Positions 31-28,567 of a stretch of DNA of 32,196 bases are shown piece by piece (position 1 is the first letter of the stretch; the number at the start of each line of letters is the position of its first letter). This DNA is from Bacillota bacterium. GTDB taxonomy: Bacteria > Bacillota > Syntrophomonadia > Syntrophomonadales > DTU052. The stretch lies in contig JAKOVY010000047.1 of the NCBI GenBank assembly GCA_029781825.1, positions 1 to 32,196 on the forward strand. The letters run 5' to 3'. The position numbers and the translations under genes were made by a program. The notes under the pieces are model-generated. The model was not told the DNA's origin and did not search any database. It saw only the letters and a list, made by a program, of their open reading frames with translations.

Positions 31-1236
31 TTAATGGCTGCATTCACCGTGGTGCTTATGATCATGACAAACCGCCCCTGTCGATTTAAGCATACCTTTC
101 AAGTATAACTCGGCCGCAACCCGGGCTTGTCCCTGAGCTCCGGTGATTACTTCAATATTTTTTTCGTTAAAAATCTCGACAGCACCTGCACCCATTCCTC
201 CGGAAATGACAACGTTTACTCCCTGGTCATTTAGGAAGTTGGGTAAAAAGCCGGGTTTATGGCCCGGATTCGGTATGGACTGGCTCCCAACGATTTGGCC
301 GTTTTCGGCTTCAAAGATTTCAAAAGTCTCGCAATGTCCAAAATGCCGGGCAACCTCTTCTCCCTCACTGGCTACCGCTATCTTAATCATGTCTTTTCCT
401 TCCTCCTCAATTTTGACTGTCCTTTTTGTTCCCGCTTCCGTTTCCAGTCTTGCGGCAATGCCTTCCGGCCATTCGCCATCGTAGTATTCAATCTTGCCAT
501 TATCGCATGCCGCCGCAATACCTGGATCGATCGGAATTCTAGCGAGAACCTCCAGGTTGTAATCCCGTGCAATTTTCTCAATGTGGCTCTCGCCAAATAC
601 ATTGTGCTCCTTTCCGCAATCAGGGCATTTAACGTAAGCCATGTTCTCAACCAAGCCCAGAACTGGTATGCCCATCATCTCAGCCATCCTCACCGCTTTG
701 GACACTATCATGGAGACGAGTTCCTGGGGTGAGGTCACAATTATAATGCCATCCACAGCCAGGGACTGGAATACCGTAAGCGGTACATCCCCGGTTCCAG
801 GGGGCATATCGATAAACATGAAATCGACTTCGCCCCATACCACATCGGACCAGAACTGCTTAACCGCCCCCGCCAGCAGGGGTCCCCTCCAGACAACCGG
901 ATCGGTGTCATTATCCAGCAGCAGATTGATCGACATAATCTTGATCCCGGTAGCGCTCTCAATGGGTAATAATCCCTGTTCACTGCCGCTTGCTTTCTCT
1001 TTTATGCCGAAGGCCTTCGGTATGGAAGGGCCCGTTACATCAGCATCCAGAATTGCTGTCCGGTAACCCCGTCGGTTCATCATCACGGCCAACAATGAGG
1101 TAACTAGGGACTTACCCACTCCGCCCTTACCACTCATTACGCCGATCACCTTGTTGATTTTGCTTAACTCATGTGGTTTAACTGAAAAATCGAATTTCCC
1201 GGCGTTCTTTTTGTCCTGATTAATATTTCCACTCAT
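31..1236 (-). CDS. Mrp/NBP35-type Fe-S carrier ATPase fused to a NifX-like domain
   Basis: 401 aa. Residues about 25-265 form an Mrp/ApbC P-loop ATPase: deviant Walker A SGKGGVGKS at 35-43, the DMPPGTGD switch near 143-150, and the paired cysteines C204 and C207 (KCPDCG) that in Mrp/Nbp35 proteins bridge a transferable Fe-S cluster between two subunits. Residues about 283-388 are a dinitrogenase iron-molybdenum cofactor binding (NifX/NafY/ORP-like) domain. The end is a histidine- and cysteine-rich tail (390-401). The role is probably assembly or transfer of an Fe-S or mixed-metal cluster in the cytoplasm; the client is unknown. It is the last gene of the operon starting at 4058, 12 bp after the preceding ATPase gene. 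The start ATG has a GAGGGG ribosome binding site. Family assignment is firm; the substrate is inference. Confidence 0.9.
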   Translation of the reverse strand: MSGNINQDKKNAGKFDFSVKPHELSKINKVIGVMSGKGGVGKSLVTSLLAVMMNRRGYRTAILDADVTGPSIPKAFGIKEKASGSEQGLLPIESATGIKIMSINLLLDNDTDPVVWRGPLLAGAVKQFWSDVVWGEVDFMFIDMPPGTGDVPLTVFQSLAVDGIIIVTSPQELVSMIVSKAVRMAEMMGIPVLGLVENMAYVKCPDCGKEHNVFGESHIEKIARDYNLEVLARIPIDPGIAAACDNGKIEYYDGEWPEGIAARLETEAGTKRTVKIEEEGKDMIKIAVASEGEEVARHFGHCETFEIFEAENGQIVGSQSIPNPGHKPGFLPNFLNDQGVNVVISGGMGAGAVEIFNEKNIEVITGAQGQARVAAELYLKGMLKSTGAVCHDHKHHGECSH

Positions 1237-1248
1237 CTCTTCTACCCC

Positions 1249-2115
1249 TCACTCATTTAATATTTTGATAGTTTCCCGGAAGACCTTTTCCGTTGCCTTT
1301 CCTGCCGGGCAGTCGATGTCAATAACGCTAAGTCCGTTGTTAACAGCTTCTACCGCCTGCGGGTCAAATGGTATCTTCCCTACATAAGGAAGTGCGAACT
1401 CTCGGCAAAACGCTTCTATCCTCCTGGTAATCTCAATATTGGTATCATACTTGTTGATACACACGGCGATCTTTAATTGAAATCCCTGCGCGGTTTTAAT
1501 TATGCGTTCCATATCACTGACACATGAAATTGAAGGCTCCGCAACAATCAAAACCATATCCACACCGCTCATGGATGCAATGACCGGGCAGCCGATACCT
1601 GGTGACCCGTCAATGATAGCCACTTCCGTATCAATATCGACAGACCTCATCTGGTTCTTCACTTCGGTAACCAGCTTTCCCGAGTTGCCATTCCCCATTC
1701 TCAACTGCGCGGTAGAGAACACCTCATCATCCACATAGAGCATGAGTTCTCCGGTGATTGCCGGTTGGAGGGATACGGCCTCGACCGGGCAAACAGCCTC
1801 ACAAACACCGCAGCCCTCACAGCCGTAATGATCAACTACATACCGACCTTCCCCGTCCATATATATAGCGTCAAAGCGGCAATTCCACCGGCAGACATCA
1901 CACTTTAGACATGACTCATCATCGATTTTTGCTTTCGGCAAACCGTAATAGTCTCTGCGTTGGGGTGCTGATGACCGGTTAACCATCAGGTGTAAATTGG
2001 GAGCATCCACATCGCAATCTGCATAGGCTTTGGAATTCGACAGCTTTATAAAAGCACAGGCAATAGTTGTTTTGCCCGTGCCCCCCTTGCCGCTAAGGAT
2101 TAACAACTGTTTCAT
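1249..2115 (-). CDS. MinD-superfamily ATPase with inserted ferredoxin domain (paralog 2)
   Basis: 288 aa. It begins MKQLLILSGKGGTGKTT, so the P-loop is at the N-terminus. Near residues 60-115 two [4Fe-4S] motifs are inserted (CLKCDVCRWNC and CEGCGVCEAVCP), followed by the rest of the MinD/ParA fold (DGSPGIGCPV). The open frame extends upstream to 2295, but ATG at 2115 has AAGGAGGTG seven to eight bases ahead and starts directly before the conserved P-loop, so that start was chosen; the longer version would overlap the previous gene by about 200 bp. It still overlaps that gene by 23 bp, which suggests translational coupling. Members of this family sit in pairs beside Mrp and NifX-like genes in anaerobes. 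They are thought to couple ATP hydrolysis to Fe-S or electron handling, but the reaction is not established. Confidence 0.88.
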   Translation of the reverse strand: MKQLLILSGKGGTGKTTIACAFIKLSNSKAYADCDVDAPNLHLMVNRSSAPQRRDYYGLPKAKIDDESCLKCDVCRWNCRFDAIYMDGEGRYVVDHYGCEGCGVCEAVCPVEAVSLQPAITGELMLYVDDEVFSTAQLRMGNGNSGKLVTEVKNQMRSVDIDTEVAIIDGSPGIGCPVIASMSGVDMVLIVAEPSISCVSDMERIIKTAQGFQLKIAVCINKYDTNIEITRRIEAFCREFALPYVGKIPFDPQAVEAVNNGLSVIDIDCPAGKATEKVFRETIKILNE

Positions 2116-2950
2116 CTCGCACCTCCTTAGTGACAGTGTGAAGCAGAGCCTTAAACAGTTCCCGGTACTTCTCACTTTCCCGGACCGGGATCCGGGCATA
2201 AGAATTAAGTCTGCCCAGGGCTTTGTCAAATGGAATCCTGCCCAGTATTTTGATTTCATTCCTGACACAGTAATCTTCCGCGGGATTATATGCATCCAAA
2301 CACTTGTTCAACAGCACACCATGAGGTTTACCAAAGAGCTTCACCAATTCACATACCATGTTGAGGTTATGCACCCCAAAGGTAGTAGGTTCCGCCACCA
2401 AAATACAATAATCTGCATCCTTGATACTTTCCATAACAATACAAGCACTACCGGGAGGACAGTCGATAAACACGGGTTTTGGCGACCGAGGAATATAAGT
2501 TAAAAGTCTCTTGATTATGGGCACACCGGATGCTTCTCCCGTATTCAACCTCCCGGTAATCACCGAAACCCCTTCGGAAAGGCCTTGTTGGATCTCACCA
2601 ATTACCTTGCTTTTTTCCGACAAGGCCTGCTGAGGGCAGAACATTACACATCCGCCGCATGAGTGGCAGACATCGTCAAATACTATTAATCGGTTGTTGA
2701 CATAGGCCAGGGCATTAAATCTGCAGAAATCAACACATCTTCGACAGCCGTCGCAAAGCTGATCATCTACCAGAGGAATTCTGACGGATACCTCTTCCGT
2801 TCCAAGGTCTCGAGGTTTGAAAAAAAGATGCCCGTTGGGCTCTTCAACATCGCAATCGATGTAAGTCGATTCTTCTGCAACCGCAGCCATATTTACAGAT
2901 ACAAGTGTTTTACCGGTACCGCCCTTGCCGCTTAAGACAGCTATCCTCAC
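2093..2950 (-). CDS. MinD-superfamily ATPase with inserted ferredoxin domain (paralog 1)
   Basis: 285 aa from GTG at 2950. P-loop LSGKGGTGKT lies within the first 20 residues. Two CxxCxxCxxxC clusters follow (CDGCRRCVDFC and CHSCGGCVMFCP), so it should bind two [4Fe-4S] clusters. The switch region reads DCPPGSAC. An ATG further upstream (2986) gives 297 aa, but it lacks a ribosome binding site and overlaps the preceding gene by 32 bp. The GTG follows the previous stop codon by four bases and has GGGGAA upstream, so it is preferred. The gene is a paralog of the next one in the operon, and the two products may act as a heterodimer (inference). Function otherwise as for its neighbour. Confidence 0.88.
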   Translation of the reverse strand: MRIAVLSGKGGTGKTLVSVNMAAVAEESTYIDCDVEEPNGHLFFKPRDLGTEEVSVRIPLVDDQLCDGCRRCVDFCRFNALAYVNNRLIVFDDVCHSCGGCVMFCPQQALSEKSKVIGEIQQGLSEGVSVITGRLNTGEASGVPIIKRLLTYIPRSPKPVFIDCPPGSACIVMESIKDADYCILVAEPTTFGVHNLNMVCELVKLFGKPHGVLLNKCLDAYNPAEDYCVRNEIKILGRIPFDKALGRLNSYARIPVRESEKYRELFKALLHTVTKEVRDETVVNP

Positions 2951-2954
2951 GTTA

Positions 2955-3323
2955 TCATCTTCCCCTATGGTTATGAAAACCGGCATGGATCTTATCGAGC
3001 AAGGGCAGAGCGCCGTTAGTCAAGGCCTCGATGTTGTCCCGGATTGAATCATTGGTGATCCGGTATATTTTGATATTGGCAGCGGATAATACTGAAGCCG
3101 CCTGCTCCCCACACCGCGGGGTTAATAACGCCTTAACCTTGCTATCTACTATTGTTTGAGCCGCTTTGATTCCTGCACCACCTTGACTGACCGCCCCTTG
3201 GTTATCGAGAAAAACGCTCTCCTGTGATTCGGTATCGAATATCAGGAAATACGGTGCTCGTCCAAATGACTGACATATAGTAGATTCCATCGATTTGTCC
3301 TCAACTGGAAGTGCTATCCTCAT
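2955..3323 (-). CDS. NifX/NifB-type dinitrogenase Fe-Mo cofactor binding domain protein
   Basis: 122 aa, a single small domain of the NifX/NafY/ORP family: begins [24 protein letters not shown], with the typical middle segment [25 protein letters not shown]. Proteins of this fold bind iron-molybdenum or other metal-sulfur clusters non-covalently. No nitrogenase genes are present here, so a nitrogen-fixation role is unlikely; a metal-sulfur carrier working with the adjacent MinD-type ATPases is more plausible. It resembles the orange-protein (ORP) loci of Desulfovibrio by gene content (from memory; not checked). The first 23 bp overlap the end of the DUF134 gene, indicating coupled translation. 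The tail ends HNHRGR and may contact metal. Confidence 0.85.
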
Positions 3324-15535: not shown

Positions 15536-16066
15536 CTAGCGTACAAAATAAATTAACACAACCCCGGCCAGGGCCGCCGAAATCGTGGCCGCTGCCACAT
15601 TCCACCGCCGCGAATAGAAAAAAATAAAAGCCAGCAAGCCGGTCACCATGGTAGGACCATCGATCACCGCGCTGTGCATCATCCTCAATCCGGTAGCGAG
15701 AATAATACCGATGACCGCCGCGGTTACCCCCTTCAAAATCCCCTGCAAAGCCGGACGTGTCAGATAAGGCCTTACGTATCGGTCGGCCAGGTAAGCGATT
15801 AGGAGGGCGGGAGTTATAACTCCCAGGACCGCCACAATTCCGTATCCGATGGAACCCATCTTCAAACCGACCAGGGTTGCGGTGTTGGTGGCGAAGGTTC
15901 CGGGAACCGTCTGGGCTACGGCGATGATATTAAACATCTCCTCATGGGACAGCCATTTATGGCGATCGACGATATCCATGAAAAAGAGGGGGATCATCAT
16001 GTACCCACCGCCGAACCCGAGCAAGCCTATCTTGAGAAACTGGAGGTATAGTTTTAGATAGAGCAT
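15536..16066 (-). CDS. Chromate transporter, second half (ChrA subunit)
   Basis: 176 aa from ATG at 16066. This is one ChrA domain of about six membrane helices, with the family signature GLLGFGGGYMMIPLFF and the loop AVAQTVPGTFATNTATLVG. Short ChrA proteins come as adjacent pairs that form one transporter, exporting chromate (or another oxyanion) by anion-coupled transport. The start overlaps the stop of the first half in TAATG, so translation is coupled; the longer open frame reaching 16336 was rejected because it runs inside the upstream gene. Whether chromate is the real substrate here is unknown. Confidence 0.88.
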   Translation of the reverse strand: MLYLKLYLQFLKIGLLGFGGGYMMIPLFFMDIVDRHKWLSHEEMFNIIAVAQTVPGTFATNTATLVGLKMGSIGYGIVAVLGVITPALLIAYLADRYVRPYLTRPALQGILKGVTAAVIGIILATGLRMMHSAVIDGPTMVTGLLAFIFFYSRRWNVAAATISAALAGVVLIYFVR

Positions 16067-16620
16067 TATCCTGCCTCCGACGGTGAAAGGAATATGTATC
16101 CCAATACCCCGGCTCCCAGAAGTATGATAACCGGGCTTAATTGAAACTGATAGAACAGAAGCATGGCTGCCAACCCTACCAGCAGGCTTCTGTAACCCTT
16201 CCATGAACGGTTCCCAAGATTGACCGCCATCCCCAGAACGATTCCTACCAGAGCCGCCTTCAAGGCTGTGGTGGCGATATCCAGCCATGAGGTCTCGGCC
16301 GCCAGCACGAGCAGGATGAACAAACCGCCGGCACATATAAAGCCGGGAACAGTCACTCCCAGAATGCCGGCCACCGCTCCCATCCAGCCTCCCATACGAT
16401 AGCCGATAATCGCGGCGGCATTGATACCCATGGCGCCGGGAAAGCTCTGGGCGATAGCCATTATCTGCAGGAATTCGTCGCTGTCAGCCCCGAGCTCGCG
16501 ACGGGCAATCTCCTCCAGGTAGGGAAGCATACTGATGCCTCCGCCCAGAGCCAGGAATCCCACCTTTAAAAACGACAAGTAAGACTTGATAGCGTTAACC
16601 CTCCATTCTTCTGGCTGCAA
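16066..16620 (-). CDS. Chromate transporter, first half (ChrA subunit)
   Basis: 184 aa as drawn from TTG at 16620, overlapping the maturase gene by 26 bp. ChrA signature: FLKVGFLALGGGISMLPYLEE, then AIAQSFPGAMGINAAAIIGYRMGG, with about five to six membrane helices. The start is uncertain. The TTG has no ribosome binding site, while a good one (GGAGGG, in the last codons of the maturase gene) sits eight bases before an in-frame ATC at 16590, which would give MKSYLSFLKVGF, a typical ChrA N-terminus. Either an unusual AUC start is used or initiation is weak. Pairs with the next gene. Confidence 0.82.
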   Translation of the reverse strand: MQPEEWRVNAIKSYLSFLKVGFLALGGGISMLPYLEEIARRELGADSDEFLQIMAIAQSFPGAMGINAAAIIGYRMGGWMGAVAGILGVTVPGFICAGGLFILLVLAAETSWLDIATTALKAALVGIVLGMAVNLGNRSWKGYRSLLVGLAAMLLFYQFQLSPVIILLGAGVLGYIFLSPSEAG

Positions 16621-17965
16621 TATAAAACGAACATTCCAGGCGTTTCTGATGCATCAGGCAGGTCAACTGGTGGGGAACCGATATGTCACCGCTCTGGAAA
16701 TAGGCCTGGGCGTGACAGCCGCCTCCACAGTGGAACCTGGCCCAACAGTTGCGGCATTCCTTTTGACTTAAGGTATTGCCCGCAAATATCTGCCGCACGG
16801 ACTCATCAACCATTCCTTCCCTGACATTCCCCATTTTGAACTCGGGTATGCCTATAAATTGGTGACAGGGATAGATATCTCCTTCCGGGGTTACTGCCAG
16901 GTATTCAATCCCGGCGCCGCAGCCGGTCAGTCTTTTGGCCAAACATGGGCCGTTCAAGTCCAGATTGAAATGGAAGAAATTCAGCGGTTTGCCCTCCCTT
17001 TCTCGGGCCAGAATAACCTCCGCCAGCTCCTCATACTGGAGAGCAATCTGCGGCAGGTGTTCTTCGGTCAGAGCAATACCCGGTGCTCCCCCGCTCACAG
17101 GTTCCAGCGAAATATTTTCAAAGCCCAGACTTGCCAGATGCAAAAAATCGTTAATGAAATCCAGATTCCGGGCGGTAAAAGTTCCTCTTACATAATAACT
17201 GACCGGATTTGAAGCCACCATGGCCTGAATCCGTGGTGCAATCCTCCGGTAAGTCCCTTCCCCGTCGGGAAGGATGCGCATCCGGTCATTAACCTCGGGG
17301 CGACCGTCCAGACTGAGTATAACACTTATTCCCTCGGCCACGAGGTAATCCCGCACCTGTTCCTCAAGAGTCATGGCATTTGTTGTCAGGGTGAAACTTA
17401 CCTGTTTTCCGGCTTGGGAAGCCCGTTCCCTTCCATATTCAACCGTGGCTTTGACAACGTCCATATTAAGCAGGGGTTCACCCCCAAAAAAGTCAAGTTC
17501 CAGATTCTTTCTGGGGCCACTGCTCCTGATGAGGAAATCAACCGCCTGCCGAGCCACCTCCATGCTCATCAATCCCTGATTTTGCCCGAAGCTTCCCTGC
17601 TGAGCAAAACAGTACCTGCACCTCATATTGCAAAGGTGGGCCACGTTAAGACAGATGGACTTGGGAAAGAAACTGCCGTAATCGAATTCAAACTCCGCCT
17701 CTTCGGTAAATAGGATCCCAGCGCGATAGGCCTCCTCAAGCTCCTTTCCGATTTCCTCCGCCAGCACCGGTGAGTAAGCGGCGGCAGTCAGGGTCTGAGC
17801 CAGTTCCCAATCTCCGCGATTCCCGATAAGCTCCTTGACAAAATAAAAGGTCTGGTCGTCCAGGACATGAACGGCACCCGAGTTCACATCCAGCAGGATG
17901 CCAATGTCTTTCATGCGAAACAGGTGTATATTGGCGGAAAAGTTGTAATGGCGCAGATTGATCAC
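16595..17965 (-). CDS. scfB: Radical SAM maturase for SCIFF peptide (thioether-forming, SPASM domain)
   Basis: 456 aa. Residues about 20-95 form a PqqD-like peptide-recognition domain (DVNSGAVHVLDDQTFYFV). Then comes the radical SAM core with CNMRCRYC (C112, C116, C119) binding the SAM-coordinating [4Fe-4S] cluster and FFGGEPL for SAM contact. The C-terminal SPASM domain carries cysteines in GCGAG, YPCHQF, CRNCWARFHCGGGC and CLMHQKRLEC for two auxiliary clusters. FFPKSICLNVAHLC is typical of SCIFF maturases, which join a cysteine sulfur to the alpha-carbon of another residue in the precursor. The start is GTG at 17965 (GGAGG seven bases before); a TTG at 17971 abuts the ribosome binding site. 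The 45-aa precursor gene lies directly upstream, confirming the assignment. Confidence 0.95.
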   Translation of the reverse strand: MINLRHYNFSANIHLFRMKDIGILLDVNSGAVHVLDDQTFYFVKELIGNRGDWELAQTLTAAAYSPVLAEEIGKELEEAYRAGILFTEEAEFEFDYGSFFPKSICLNVAHLCNMRCRYCFAQQGSFGQNQGLMSMEVARQAVDFLIRSSGPRKNLELDFFGGEPLLNMDVVKATVEYGRERASQAGKQVSFTLTTNAMTLEEQVRDYLVAEGISVILSLDGRPEVNDRMRILPDGEGTYRRIAPRIQAMVASNPVSYYVRGTFTARNLDFINDFLHLASLGFENISLEPVSGGAPGIALTEEHLPQIALQYEELAEVILAREREGKPLNFFHFNLDLNGPCLAKRLTGCGAGIEYLAVTPEGDIYPCHQFIGIPEFKMGNVREGMVDESVRQIFAGNTLSQKECRNCWARFHCGGGCHAQAYFQSGDISVPHQLTCLMHQKRLECSFYIAARRMEG

Positions 17966-17988
17966 GAGCAAACCTCCATAAGGATTGA

Positions 17989-18015
17989 AGGCCCTACCAT
18001 CTGCAGGTAGGGCCT
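17989..18015 (-). promoter_or_regulatory. Stem-loop between SCIFF precursor and maturase genes
   Basis: A 10-bp perfect stem joins 17989-17998 (AGGCCCTACC) and 18006-18015 (GGTAGGGCCT) with a seven-base loop. In minus-strand RNA only TTCAATCC follows, so termination would be partial. It could lower maturase expression relative to its peptide, or protect the 3' end of the short precursor message. Confidence 0.55.
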
Positions 18016-18113: not shown

Positions 18114-18251
18114 CTATCTTCTGCAGACCTGATTGCCAACAGTGCATGAGGTCTTGCAGGCTGACTGACATGAAGCCTGACACTCTCTGCAATTTGTATC
18201 ATTTCCGTTCTTCAAGTTGGGTTGGATTATGGTTTTCAGGTGCTTGCCCAC
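18114..18251 (-). CDS. scfA: SCIFF ribosomal peptide precursor (six cysteines in forty-five)
   Basis: 45 aa, found by direct translation. The peptide starts MGKHLKTIIQ, has a polar leader, and ends in a cysteine-rich core with C21, C24, C28, C32, C36 and C43 (spacing C-x2-C-x3-C-x3-C-x3-C-x6-C) reading CRECQASC, CQSACKTSC and TVGNQVC. Exactly six cysteines in 45 residues is the definition of SCIFF, the most widespread ranthipeptide of Clostridia. C32 and T37 match the residues I recall being cross-linked in the Thermoanaerobacter homolog. GTG start with GAGGAG nine bases upstream. It lies 51 bp after tRNA-Gly with no promoter or terminator visible between, so it may be cotranscribed with the tRNAs. 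The biological role of SCIFF is not known. Confidence 0.93.
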   Translation of the reverse strand: MGKHLKTIIQPNLKNGNDTNCRECQASCQSACKTSCTVGNQVCRR

Positions 18252-18302
18252 TTTTTCACTCTCCTCATAACCGCACGAAATCAAGCCACAATAAAATGAA
18301 AA

Positions 18303-18377
18303 TGGAGCGGGAAAAGGGATTCGAACCCTCGACCCTCGGCTTGGGAAGCCGATGCTCTACCACTGAGCTACTCCCGC
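18303..18377 (-). tRNA. tRNA-Gly (CCC)
   Basis: A 75-nt cloverleaf with encoded CCA. The acceptor begins GCGGGAG, the D arm contains AGCTCAGTGGTAGAGC, the anticodon loop is TTCCCAA (anticodon CCC) and the T arm contains GGTTCGAATCC. Confidence 0.95.
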
Positions 18378-18384
18378 ACGTCTA

Positions 18385-18460
<76 letters not shown>

Positions 18461-18485
18461 GGATATTATGCCAACCGTCACCGAA

Positions 18486-18562
18486 TGGTGGGCGATGAGG
18501 GATTCGAACCCCCGACCTCTTGCATGTGAGGCAAGCGCTCTAACCTGCTGAGCTAATCGCCC
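18486..18562 (-). tRNA. tRNA-Val (CAC)
   Basis: A 77-nt cloverleaf with encoded CCA. It starts GGGCGATTAGCTCAG; the anticodon loop is CTCACAT between CTTGC and GCAAG; the T arm contains GGTTCGAATCC. It is the first tRNA of the cluster. Confidence 0.95.
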
Positions 18563-18576
18563 CGCCAGCGAAGAAT

Positions 18577-18605
18577 ATCATACTAAATCGTTGCCGTTTT
18601 GTCAA
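18577..18605 (-). promoter_or_regulatory. Strong sigma-A promoter for the tRNA cluster (and probably SCIFF)
   Basis: On the minus strand TTGACA (18605-18600) and TATGAT (18582-18577) are 17 bp apart, a near-perfect housekeeping promoter just after the purA stop codon. Transcription should begin about eight bases before tRNA-Val. Confidence 0.88.
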
Positions 18606-23493: not shown

Positions 23494-24063
23494 TTAAACG
23501 GTTATCACTTTGTCGGCGGCTGCCACCCGTTCCAGGATGGAGTACATATTGGTAACCTGACCTACCAGCAGTTGGTGTTTCAGTTGGTAGAAATCGAGAC
23601 AGGTCCCGCAGGACAATATCTCCACCCCGTTCTGTTCCAATTCCAAAAGATGATCCAGAACCTCGGAACCCTGTGAGGTTAACGCTACCCCGCTGTTAAT
23701 GAAGATTATTGTTGTCACCGCATCCCTCATCTGGGTCAGCGTATAAAGGAAACTTTTCATCAGGATCTTGCCTAAAGCATCATCTCCGCGCCCAAGATAC
23801 TGCCCGGTGACAAGAATGACTCCTTGATTGTATTTTTCCTGATCCGGCCGGCTCGCGTTTTTTTCAATATGGATATGATAGTCATTACCATGCCGTTCCA
23901 CTTCAACATTATAGCCCATACCCTGGGCTAAACGGCTGACATTCTCCACCGCCGTCTCGTTATCCACCACGGTGGTAACCGGTCCTCCTGCTTCCAGGGC
24001 TTTCTTGGTCAGAATAACCGGTTGAGGGCAGGAGAGTCCGCGGGCGTCAACATAGCTCTGCAT
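23494..24063 (-). CDS. yedF: Sulfurtransferase-like selenium metabolism protein YedF
   Basis: 189 aa from ATG at 24063. An N-terminal TusA/SirA domain (about 1-70) carries the CPxP motif at C12 (GLSCPQPVI), and a C-terminal DsrE-like domain (about 80-185) contains LSCGTCLDFYQLK. This two-domain architecture is the YedF family that travels with selD in selenium-using bacteria and is thought to carry activated sulfur or selenium; the exact reaction is not settled. The start overlaps the selD stop in TGATG, indicating coupled translation; a GTG one codon earlier is the alternative. Confidence 0.9.
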   Translation of the reverse strand: MQSYVDARGLSCPQPVILTKKALEAGGPVTTVVDNETAVENVSRLAQGMGYNVEVERHGNDYHIHIEKNASRPDQEKYNQGVILVTGQYLGRGDDALGKILMKSFLYTLTQMRDAVTTIIFINSGVALTSQGSEVLDHLLELEQNGVEILSCGTCLDFYQLKHQLLVGQVTNMYSILERVAAADKVITV

Positions 24064-25115
24064 CACTTGTCACCCCTCGATACTTTGATGTATCCGGCAC
24101 CGCTCTTGATCACTCGCCCGACCATAGTGAGCCCGACTGATTTGCTGCGGGCCAGTTTCTCCAGTTCATGACTTTTGGCAGCATCAACAGCCATTAAAAG
24201 ACCTCCGGAGGTCTCCGGGGAATACATGAGGTCCAAACGGGTATTGTCAACATCTTTGCCCACTTCAACCCGTCCCCGCAGGTAATCCCGGTTGGCATAA
24301 GCCCCGCCGGGAATAAGTCCCATGGCCGCCAGTTCCTCTACTCCCTTCAAGAGCGGCAGATGGTCCGCCCATAGTTCAATTTCTACCTGGCTGCCTGCAG
24401 CCATTTCCATGGTATGGCCGAGCAGGCCGAACCCGGTTATGTCGGTAGCCGCGTTTACTCCGACTTCCATCATAACCTCGCGGGCGGCTCTGTTCAGTTG
24501 GGTCATCGAACGAACCGCCTCTTCCACAAGTTGGGCGGGCGCCATTTCACCTTTGATGGCGGTGGTAACTATACCGGTTCCCAGGGGTTTGGTCAAATAA
24601 AGGTAATCACCGGCCTTGGCCCCTCGGTTGGATACCACTCTTCGAGGATCGATGATTCCGGTAACAGACAGGCCGTACTTGGGTTCCTGATCATCCACCG
24701 AGTGACCCCCGACCAGCACGGCTCCGGCTTCCTCGATCTTCGAAACCCCCCCTTTAAGAATCTCCTGGAGGATGGAAATATCGAGACAGTCCGGAAAGCA
24801 CACAATATTCATGGCGGTCAACGGCTCCCCTCCCATAGCGTATACGTCGCTTAAGGCGTTGGCCGCGGCAATCTGTCCAAACAGATAAGGGTCATCCACC
24901 ATAGGGGTAAAGAAATCGACGGTTTGAATCAGGGCCGTTTGTTCCGATAGTTTGAAAACTCCTGCGTCGTCGGCACCTTCAAACCCTACCAACAGCCTGG
25001 GGTCGGGACGCAGTTCTATTGCACTCAAAACCCGGTTCAGGGTCCCCGGACCCAGTTTGGCCGCTCAACCGGAAGCCCTGACCATCTGGGTCAACTTCAA
25101 CTGCTCCCCAGCCAT
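24063..25115 (-). CDS. selD: Selenide, water dikinase; a selenoprotein with Sec17 encoded by UGA
   Basis: 350 aa including selenocysteine. It makes selenophosphate from selenide and ATP for Sec-tRNA synthesis. Conventional translation would begin after the UGA at 25067-25065, but the frame continues upstream to ATG at 25115 and reads MAGEQLKLTQMVRASG-U-AAKLGPG, exactly the catalytic N-terminus of SelD, where residue 17 is Cys in E. coli and Sec in many anaerobes; K20 follows. Later motifs are TVDFFTPMVDDPY, NALSDVYAMGG, VLVGGHSV and DITGFGLLGH. A stem-loop for SelB lies after the UGA. The ATG has a run of G (GGGGGGAGCAGG) upstream and is 16 bp from the aminopeptidase gene, so it is in an operon with it and yedF. 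Confidence 0.96.
25032..25072 (-). promoter_or_regulatory. Bacterial SECIS element in selD
   Basis: In minus-strand RNA an inner stem GGGTCC/GGACCC (within 25040-25053) sits about 11 bases after the UGA, with G residues at the tip, and an outer stem AACCGG/CCGGTT (25067-25072 with 25032-25037) encloses it. Distance and G-rich apex suit recognition by the SelB winged-helix domain. Confidence 0.75.
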
Positions 25116-28468: not shown

Positions 28469-28567
28469 TGGCGGAAGCGTGTGGGAATCGAACCCACCCA
28501 CCGCAGGGCCACTGCGGCGCAAACTGGATTTGAAGTCCAGGCGACCCACCAGGACCGATCCGCTTCC
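28469..28567 (-). tRNA. selC: tRNA-Sec (UCA), selenocysteine-inserting tRNA
   Basis: A 99-nt tRNA with encoded CCA. The anticodon loop is CTTCAAA (anticodon TCA) between CTGGA and TCCAG, a long variable arm (CGCCGCAGTGGCCCTGCGG) follows, and the T loop is TTCGATT. The acceptor starts GGAAGCGG and ends CGCTTCC-G-CCA; with the 5-bp T stem this gives the 8+5 extended arm of bacterial tRNA-Sec, though the eighth acceptor pair (G with A) is a mismatch. It is charged with Ser, converted to Sec by SelA, and delivered by SelB. Confidence 0.95.

Follow-up and report, generated by a model that had tools for sequence, protein, structure and literature searches.

A SCIFF ranthipeptide precursor gene and its maturase gene behind a tRNA-Gly(CCC) cluster in a draft genome of the Syntrophomonadales

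The window analysed here, a whole stretch of 32,196 nucleotides from a draft genome (90.6% complete) of a Bacillota bacterium of the order Syntrophomonadales, carries on its minus strand a short cysteine-rich gene, a radical SAM enzyme gene behind it and a cluster of three tRNA genes in front. By coordinate, the features are:

16595..17965, minus strand: scfB, 456-aa radical SAM/SPASM SCIFF maturase (TIGR03974, CteB alignment)
17989..18015, minus strand: hairpin with a stem of 9-10 bp and a loop of 7 nt, in the scfA-scfB gap (from sequence; relatives have an intrinsic terminator in that gap)
18114..18251, minus strand: scfA, 45-aa SCIFF (ranthipeptide) precursor (TIGR03973 and PF13165 matches)
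18261..18266, minus strand: Shine-Dalgarno-like GAGGAG of scfA (from sequence)
18303..18377, minus strand: tRNA-Gly(CCC), 51 bp upstream of scfA (ARAGORN, Rfam)
18385..18460, minus strand: tRNA-Phe(GAA) (ARAGORN, Rfam)
18486..18562, minus strand: tRNA-Val(CAC), which opens the tRNA cluster (ARAGORN, Rfam)
18577..18605, minus strand: sigma-70-type promoter match TTGACA-N17-TATGAT, 14 bp before tRNA-Val (11/12 match)

Elsewhere in the window, the SelD frame (24063-25106, minus strand) continues across an in-frame TGA, at ASG-U-AAKLGPG, so that SelD is probably a selenoprotein; the window also holds genes for YedF and a SelB-like protein, and tRNA-Sec (28469-28567). A row of genes at the window start (31-2986, minus strand) encodes an Fe-S carrier of the MrpORP type and two ATPases of the MinD/ferredoxin type.

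The product of scfA, VGKHLKTIIQPNLKNGNDTNCRECQASCQSACKTSCTVGNQVCRR (translation of 18114-18251, minus strand), is read from a GTG start over 45 codons and a stop, with 9 bp between GAGGAG and the GTG. It comprises a leader of approximately residues 1-20 and a cysteine-rich core (21-45), with cysteines at 21, 24, 28, 32, 36 and 43, and threonines at 7, 19, 34 and 37; the six-cysteine spacing C-x2-C-x3-C-x3-C-x3-C-x6-C is thus present in a product of about 45 residues. An earlier note on this DNA had described a 45-codon minus-strand gene with six cysteines, lying 148 bp from an scfB-type gene, had taken the two for a SCIFF precursor beside its maturase, and had proposed a search against the SCIFF model. 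The translation agrees with that description, and the search returned 66.4 bits for TIGR03973 (cut-off 50, E 1.5e-18) and 70.5 bits for PF13165 (cut-off 27, E 1.1e-19). With two curated models matched at these values and the core kept in 178 distinct relatives, the notion that scfA is a chance reading frame, or encodes a protein other than SCIFF, is vanishingly improbable and was ruled out. Matches of the 45-mer to DARPins in the PDB were judged to be chance. Opposite the tRNAs and scfA, the plus strand has an antisense open reading frame of 127 codons (18146-18529), which translates tRNA sequence and can almost certainly be dismissed as spurious.

The most plausible start of scfB is the GTG at 17965, preceded by GGAGG (17973-17977), which sets the gap from the scfA stop at 148 bp, in the same direction, as the earlier note had it. 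ScfB scores 512 bits against TIGR03974 (cut-off 425), and 459 bits against the 'not_ScfB' exception model, under the cut-off of 855 for that model. It aligns over its full length with CteB (5WGG/5WHY; 456 bits); the solved CteB structure contains an RRE, and the N-terminal part of ScfB is covered by this alignment, which is one of sequence. The CxxxCxxC motif occupies residues 112-119 (C112/C116/C119), the SPASM cysteines span C341-C436, and both sets of cysteine columns are unchanged in 11 members of the order. The closest named relatives are from the Syntrophomonadaceae MAG AS07pgkLD_164 (86% identity) and Thermosyntropha lipolytica (52%). Because both proteins exceed curated equivalog cut-offs, there is little doubt that 18114-18251 and 16595-17965 constitute an ordinary clostridial SCIFF ranthipeptide unit, in identity and in chemistry class; family membership and catalytic motifs are evident from the sequences, and cross-linking chemistry in the organism of the window would be expected to follow. 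A split ChrA-type chromate transporter pair (15536-16620, minus strand) lies between scfB and an M23 peptidase gene in the genus of the window; in other loci of the order scfB is followed by the M23 gene directly, without the ChrA pair.

SCIFF was found in 52 of 61 relatives, in 36 of the 40 class genomes of at least 90% completeness, and in 245 of 300 sampled genomes of the phylum, and a search of 14 control genomes gave no SCIFF match. By a tblastn criterion, 204 of 224 loci have ScfB on the same strand within 1.5 kb downstream of scfA, a minimum count because some contigs end early; the published pairing of precursor and maturase within 500 bp (PMC5300114) therefore holds here too, and the maturase gene of the window falls well inside that distance. 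The earlier note was right that so small a gene is easily missed, and this is already published, as are the family itself and the pairing. Given that SCIFF is near-universal in these lineages, the pair adds little as a discovery. Apparent absences were also considered. Loss in two genomes (G034 and G037) was rejected in favour of an assembly gap, because purA and the M23 gene sit at contig ends, where tRNA-Val follows purA in G037; in G022, purA lies within a long contig with neither scfA nor a tRNA behind it, and the loss seems real. Three further genomes (G008, G039 and G057) have ScfB fragments at or near contig ends. In one draft genome (G045) the scfA-scfB pair occurs twice, both times behind tRNA-Asp and tRNA-Gly(CCC), through either a duplication or a strain mixture.

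The residues of the predicted cross-link merit closer attention. The earlier note had named C32 and T37, and both are present at the positions first reported; the acceptor, however, is disputed. A Cys32-Thr37 cross-link was reported in vitro for Tte1186a and CteA, while the CteA link was later assigned anew, on the basis of co-expression, to Cys32 and Thr34 via C-gamma (PMC8326336, PMC8172795). In our alignment of 178 distinct cores, K33, T34, S35, N40 and Q41 are constant, whereas position 37 is Thr in 171 and Gly in seven; four of these seven were picked up through their own ScfB gene, and in the three scanned with NCBIfam, ScfB scored at least 715 bits in each. In two further precursors (L131:3791-3943 and L202:1901-2125), each next to a full-length ScfB, positions 32 and 37 are both Ser and one more Cys is present close to the C terminus; with the reported donor Cys32 replaced by Ser, they constitute natural tests of the cross-link assignment. 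As T34 is invariant while position 37 is Gly or Ser in some members with a full maturase, conservation favours Thr34 as the acceptor, in support rather than in proof, given that other core positions are also invariant and that the search pattern fixed the cysteine spacing. A link from Cys32 to Thr37 would accord with the in vitro reports and with the Thr kept at that position in most cores, but is difficult to reconcile with the Gly37 cores found via ScfB, with the invariance of T34 and with the co-expression result, and we judge it distinctly unlikely. In the published disagreement, conservation thus sides with Thr34, and supplies natural variants that could settle the matter. The earlier note had also looked to the cysteine spacing in relatives: that of the first five cysteines is shared across the 178 cores, where the search pattern required it, and six loci lacked it. 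In three precursors (L119, L176 and L179) Cys36 is replaced by Ile or Leu, leaving five cysteines.

The tRNA genes upstream of scfA form a recurrent neighbourhood. Of the order loci, 48 have 400 bp or more of sequence upstream of scfA; by our count, the first same-strand tRNA met within 400 bp upstream is tRNA-Gly(CCC) in 33 of these and tRNA-Asp in two. Outside the order, tRNA-Gly(CCC) lies on the same strand within 1 kb upstream of scfA in 14 of 59 families, and in none of the 59 does it occur in the other orientation or downstream; all tRNAs within 1 kb of scfA in families outside the order are upstream and on the same strand (49/49). The tRNA-Gly of the window is the sole one with a CCC anticodon among the loci examined in its own genome, a copy number that rests on the best-scoring tRNA loci and excludes about eleven low-scoring ones. 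Weak Rfam matches on the tRNAs (plastid ycf2, YrlA, tymovirus) fall far under gathering scores and were dismissed as chance. The literature searched yielded no paper naming SCIFF together with tRNA-Gly.

Several observations suggest that this neighbourhood reflects a shared transcript. In the window, neither a terminator nor a promoter match was found in the 51-bp gap between tRNA-Gly(CCC) and scfA, and the terminator search of the same gap found none in 31 of the 33 linked order loci. Of 49 clusters, 25 have a promoter match of at least 10/12 before the first tRNA, versus 5 with such a match in the gap between tRNA and scfA; the match at 18577-18605, equalled in none of 200 shuffles, is the proposed promoter of a tRNA-scfA transcript. 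Moreover, under a strict rule assessed against dinucleotide shuffles, an intrinsic terminator lies between scfA and scfB in 37 of 50 order loci (0.7 expected), in 21 of 72 loci of the phylum sample (0.5 expected), and in 23 of 70 in other Clostridia (0.2 expected). Because the gap is short and bare, the promoter tends to precede the first tRNA, and the order loci so commonly have a terminator after scfA, co-transcription of scfA with the tRNAs appears somewhat more probable than separate expression. An alternative, which we regard as possible if rather doubtful, is that the SCIFF pair is the same but a weak promoter within the 51-bp gap serves scfA separately, the tRNA neighbourhood being inherited order only. 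The block rplI-purA-tRNA-scfA-scfB-M23-murA is itself conserved and tends to stay together, and since these flanking genes are syntenic too, the linkage may be inherited gene order; we do not claim it alone as proof of selected linkage. Further, in several distant families, such as L080, L196 and L228, a terminator and a promoter do lie between tRNA-Gly and scfA, such that read-through from tRNA to scfA is not universal. Against a separate scfA promoter stand the shortness of the gap, its lack of a promoter-like pair or terminator in the window and in most order loci, and loci such as L261, in which tRNA-Gly(CCC) is followed directly by a terminator-like hairpin and not by scfA, although such cases are few.

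The hairpin of the window (17989-18015) fails the strict terminator rule. It is kept in the family of the window, and its outer stem pairs covary in L031 (GG/CC to AA/TT); its U-tract is poor in this genus (GGCCTTCAATCC), and termination here may therefore be weak. On the simplest reading, the terminator between scfA and scfB would provide an excess of precursor over maturase. Under co-transcription, RNA polymerase would start at the promoter before tRNA-Val and transcribe tRNA-Val, tRNA-Phe and tRNA-Gly and then scfA; a cut after the tRNA would release the scfA messenger, and the hairpin after scfA would either stop much of the transcript there, or stabilise the scfA end. ScfB would then be made by read-through, and precursor would exceed maturase as a result. 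The ScfA leader would bind the putative N-terminal RRE domain of ScfB, which would abstract a side-chain hydrogen from core Thr34 (less likely Thr37), and join that carbon to the sulphur of Cys32, giving a thioether peptide 2 Da lighter. More broadly, we tentatively entertain that in bacteria of the Syntrophomonadales type, and in several further families within the phylum, a tRNA-Gly(CCC) operon transcript ending at the terminator before scfB carries the SCIFF messenger as its 3' part; this seems to us somewhat short of an even prospect. If true, the supply of precursor would follow tRNA transcription and growth rate directly, and read-through would be the only source of maturase.

As to what the mature peptide does, the statement in the earlier note that function in Clostridia is still unknown is partly out of date: quorum sensing has been proposed from knockouts in C. 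beijerinckii and C. ljungdahlii, according to reviews that cite the 2020 study (PMC8102284; PMC8326336, table). That note had also called the pair a full biosynthetic unit; precursor and maturase do adjoin, but completeness is unproven, as no exporter or leader protease is linked to scfA-scfB. The draft genome itself yielded no match to a Peptidase_C39 exporter, and no AgrB. Given the near-universality of SCIFF in the order, together with the lack of a C39 exporter match, the likeliest role of the mature peptide is within the cell or as a general physiological signal, rather than that of a bacteriocin. That it is exported as a quorum-sensing signal, as those knockout transcriptomes are summarised to indicate, we consider on the whole unlikely in this organism, where no exporter or protease is linked to the pair and the draft genome showed no Peptidase_C39 and no AgrB; moreover, the core hardly changes throughout the phylum (178 distinct cores), which is unusual for a species-specific signal. 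We infer instead an intracellular or housekeeping role. The deep linkage of tRNA-Gly(CCC) to scfA, with the terminator before scfB, suggests that SCIFF is made constitutively, in step with growth, and not as a conditional antibiotic, a reading which narrows the search for its function.

Among known systems, the nearest are Tte1186a/Tte1186 and CteA/CteB (thermocellin), which belong to TIGR03973 and TIGR03974. These precursors have the same length and six-cysteine core as that of the window and share C32/K33/T34/S35/C36/T37 with it, and their maturases, like ScfB, are encoded adjacently and have radical SAM and SPASM parts, with an RRE that is probable in ScfB too. Freyrasin (PapA/PapB) is likewise a product of radical-SAM non-alpha thioether chemistry, and ScfB scores 270 bits against the PapB model; this is under the cut-off of 340, however, and the scfA precursor lacks Cys-X3-Asp repeats. 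The Nif11-type, quinohemoprotein (QhpD) and 'not_ScfB' maturases have the radical SAM/SPASM architecture in common with ScfB, which scores under the curated cut-offs of all three models. Within the SCIFF family, the core of the window starts TNCREC rather than the commoner GGCGEC, an N20/R22 variant that is common in this order, and the leader is one residue shorter than the model. Unlike the SCIFF systems named above, scfA of the window has a GTG start and lies directly behind tRNA genes.
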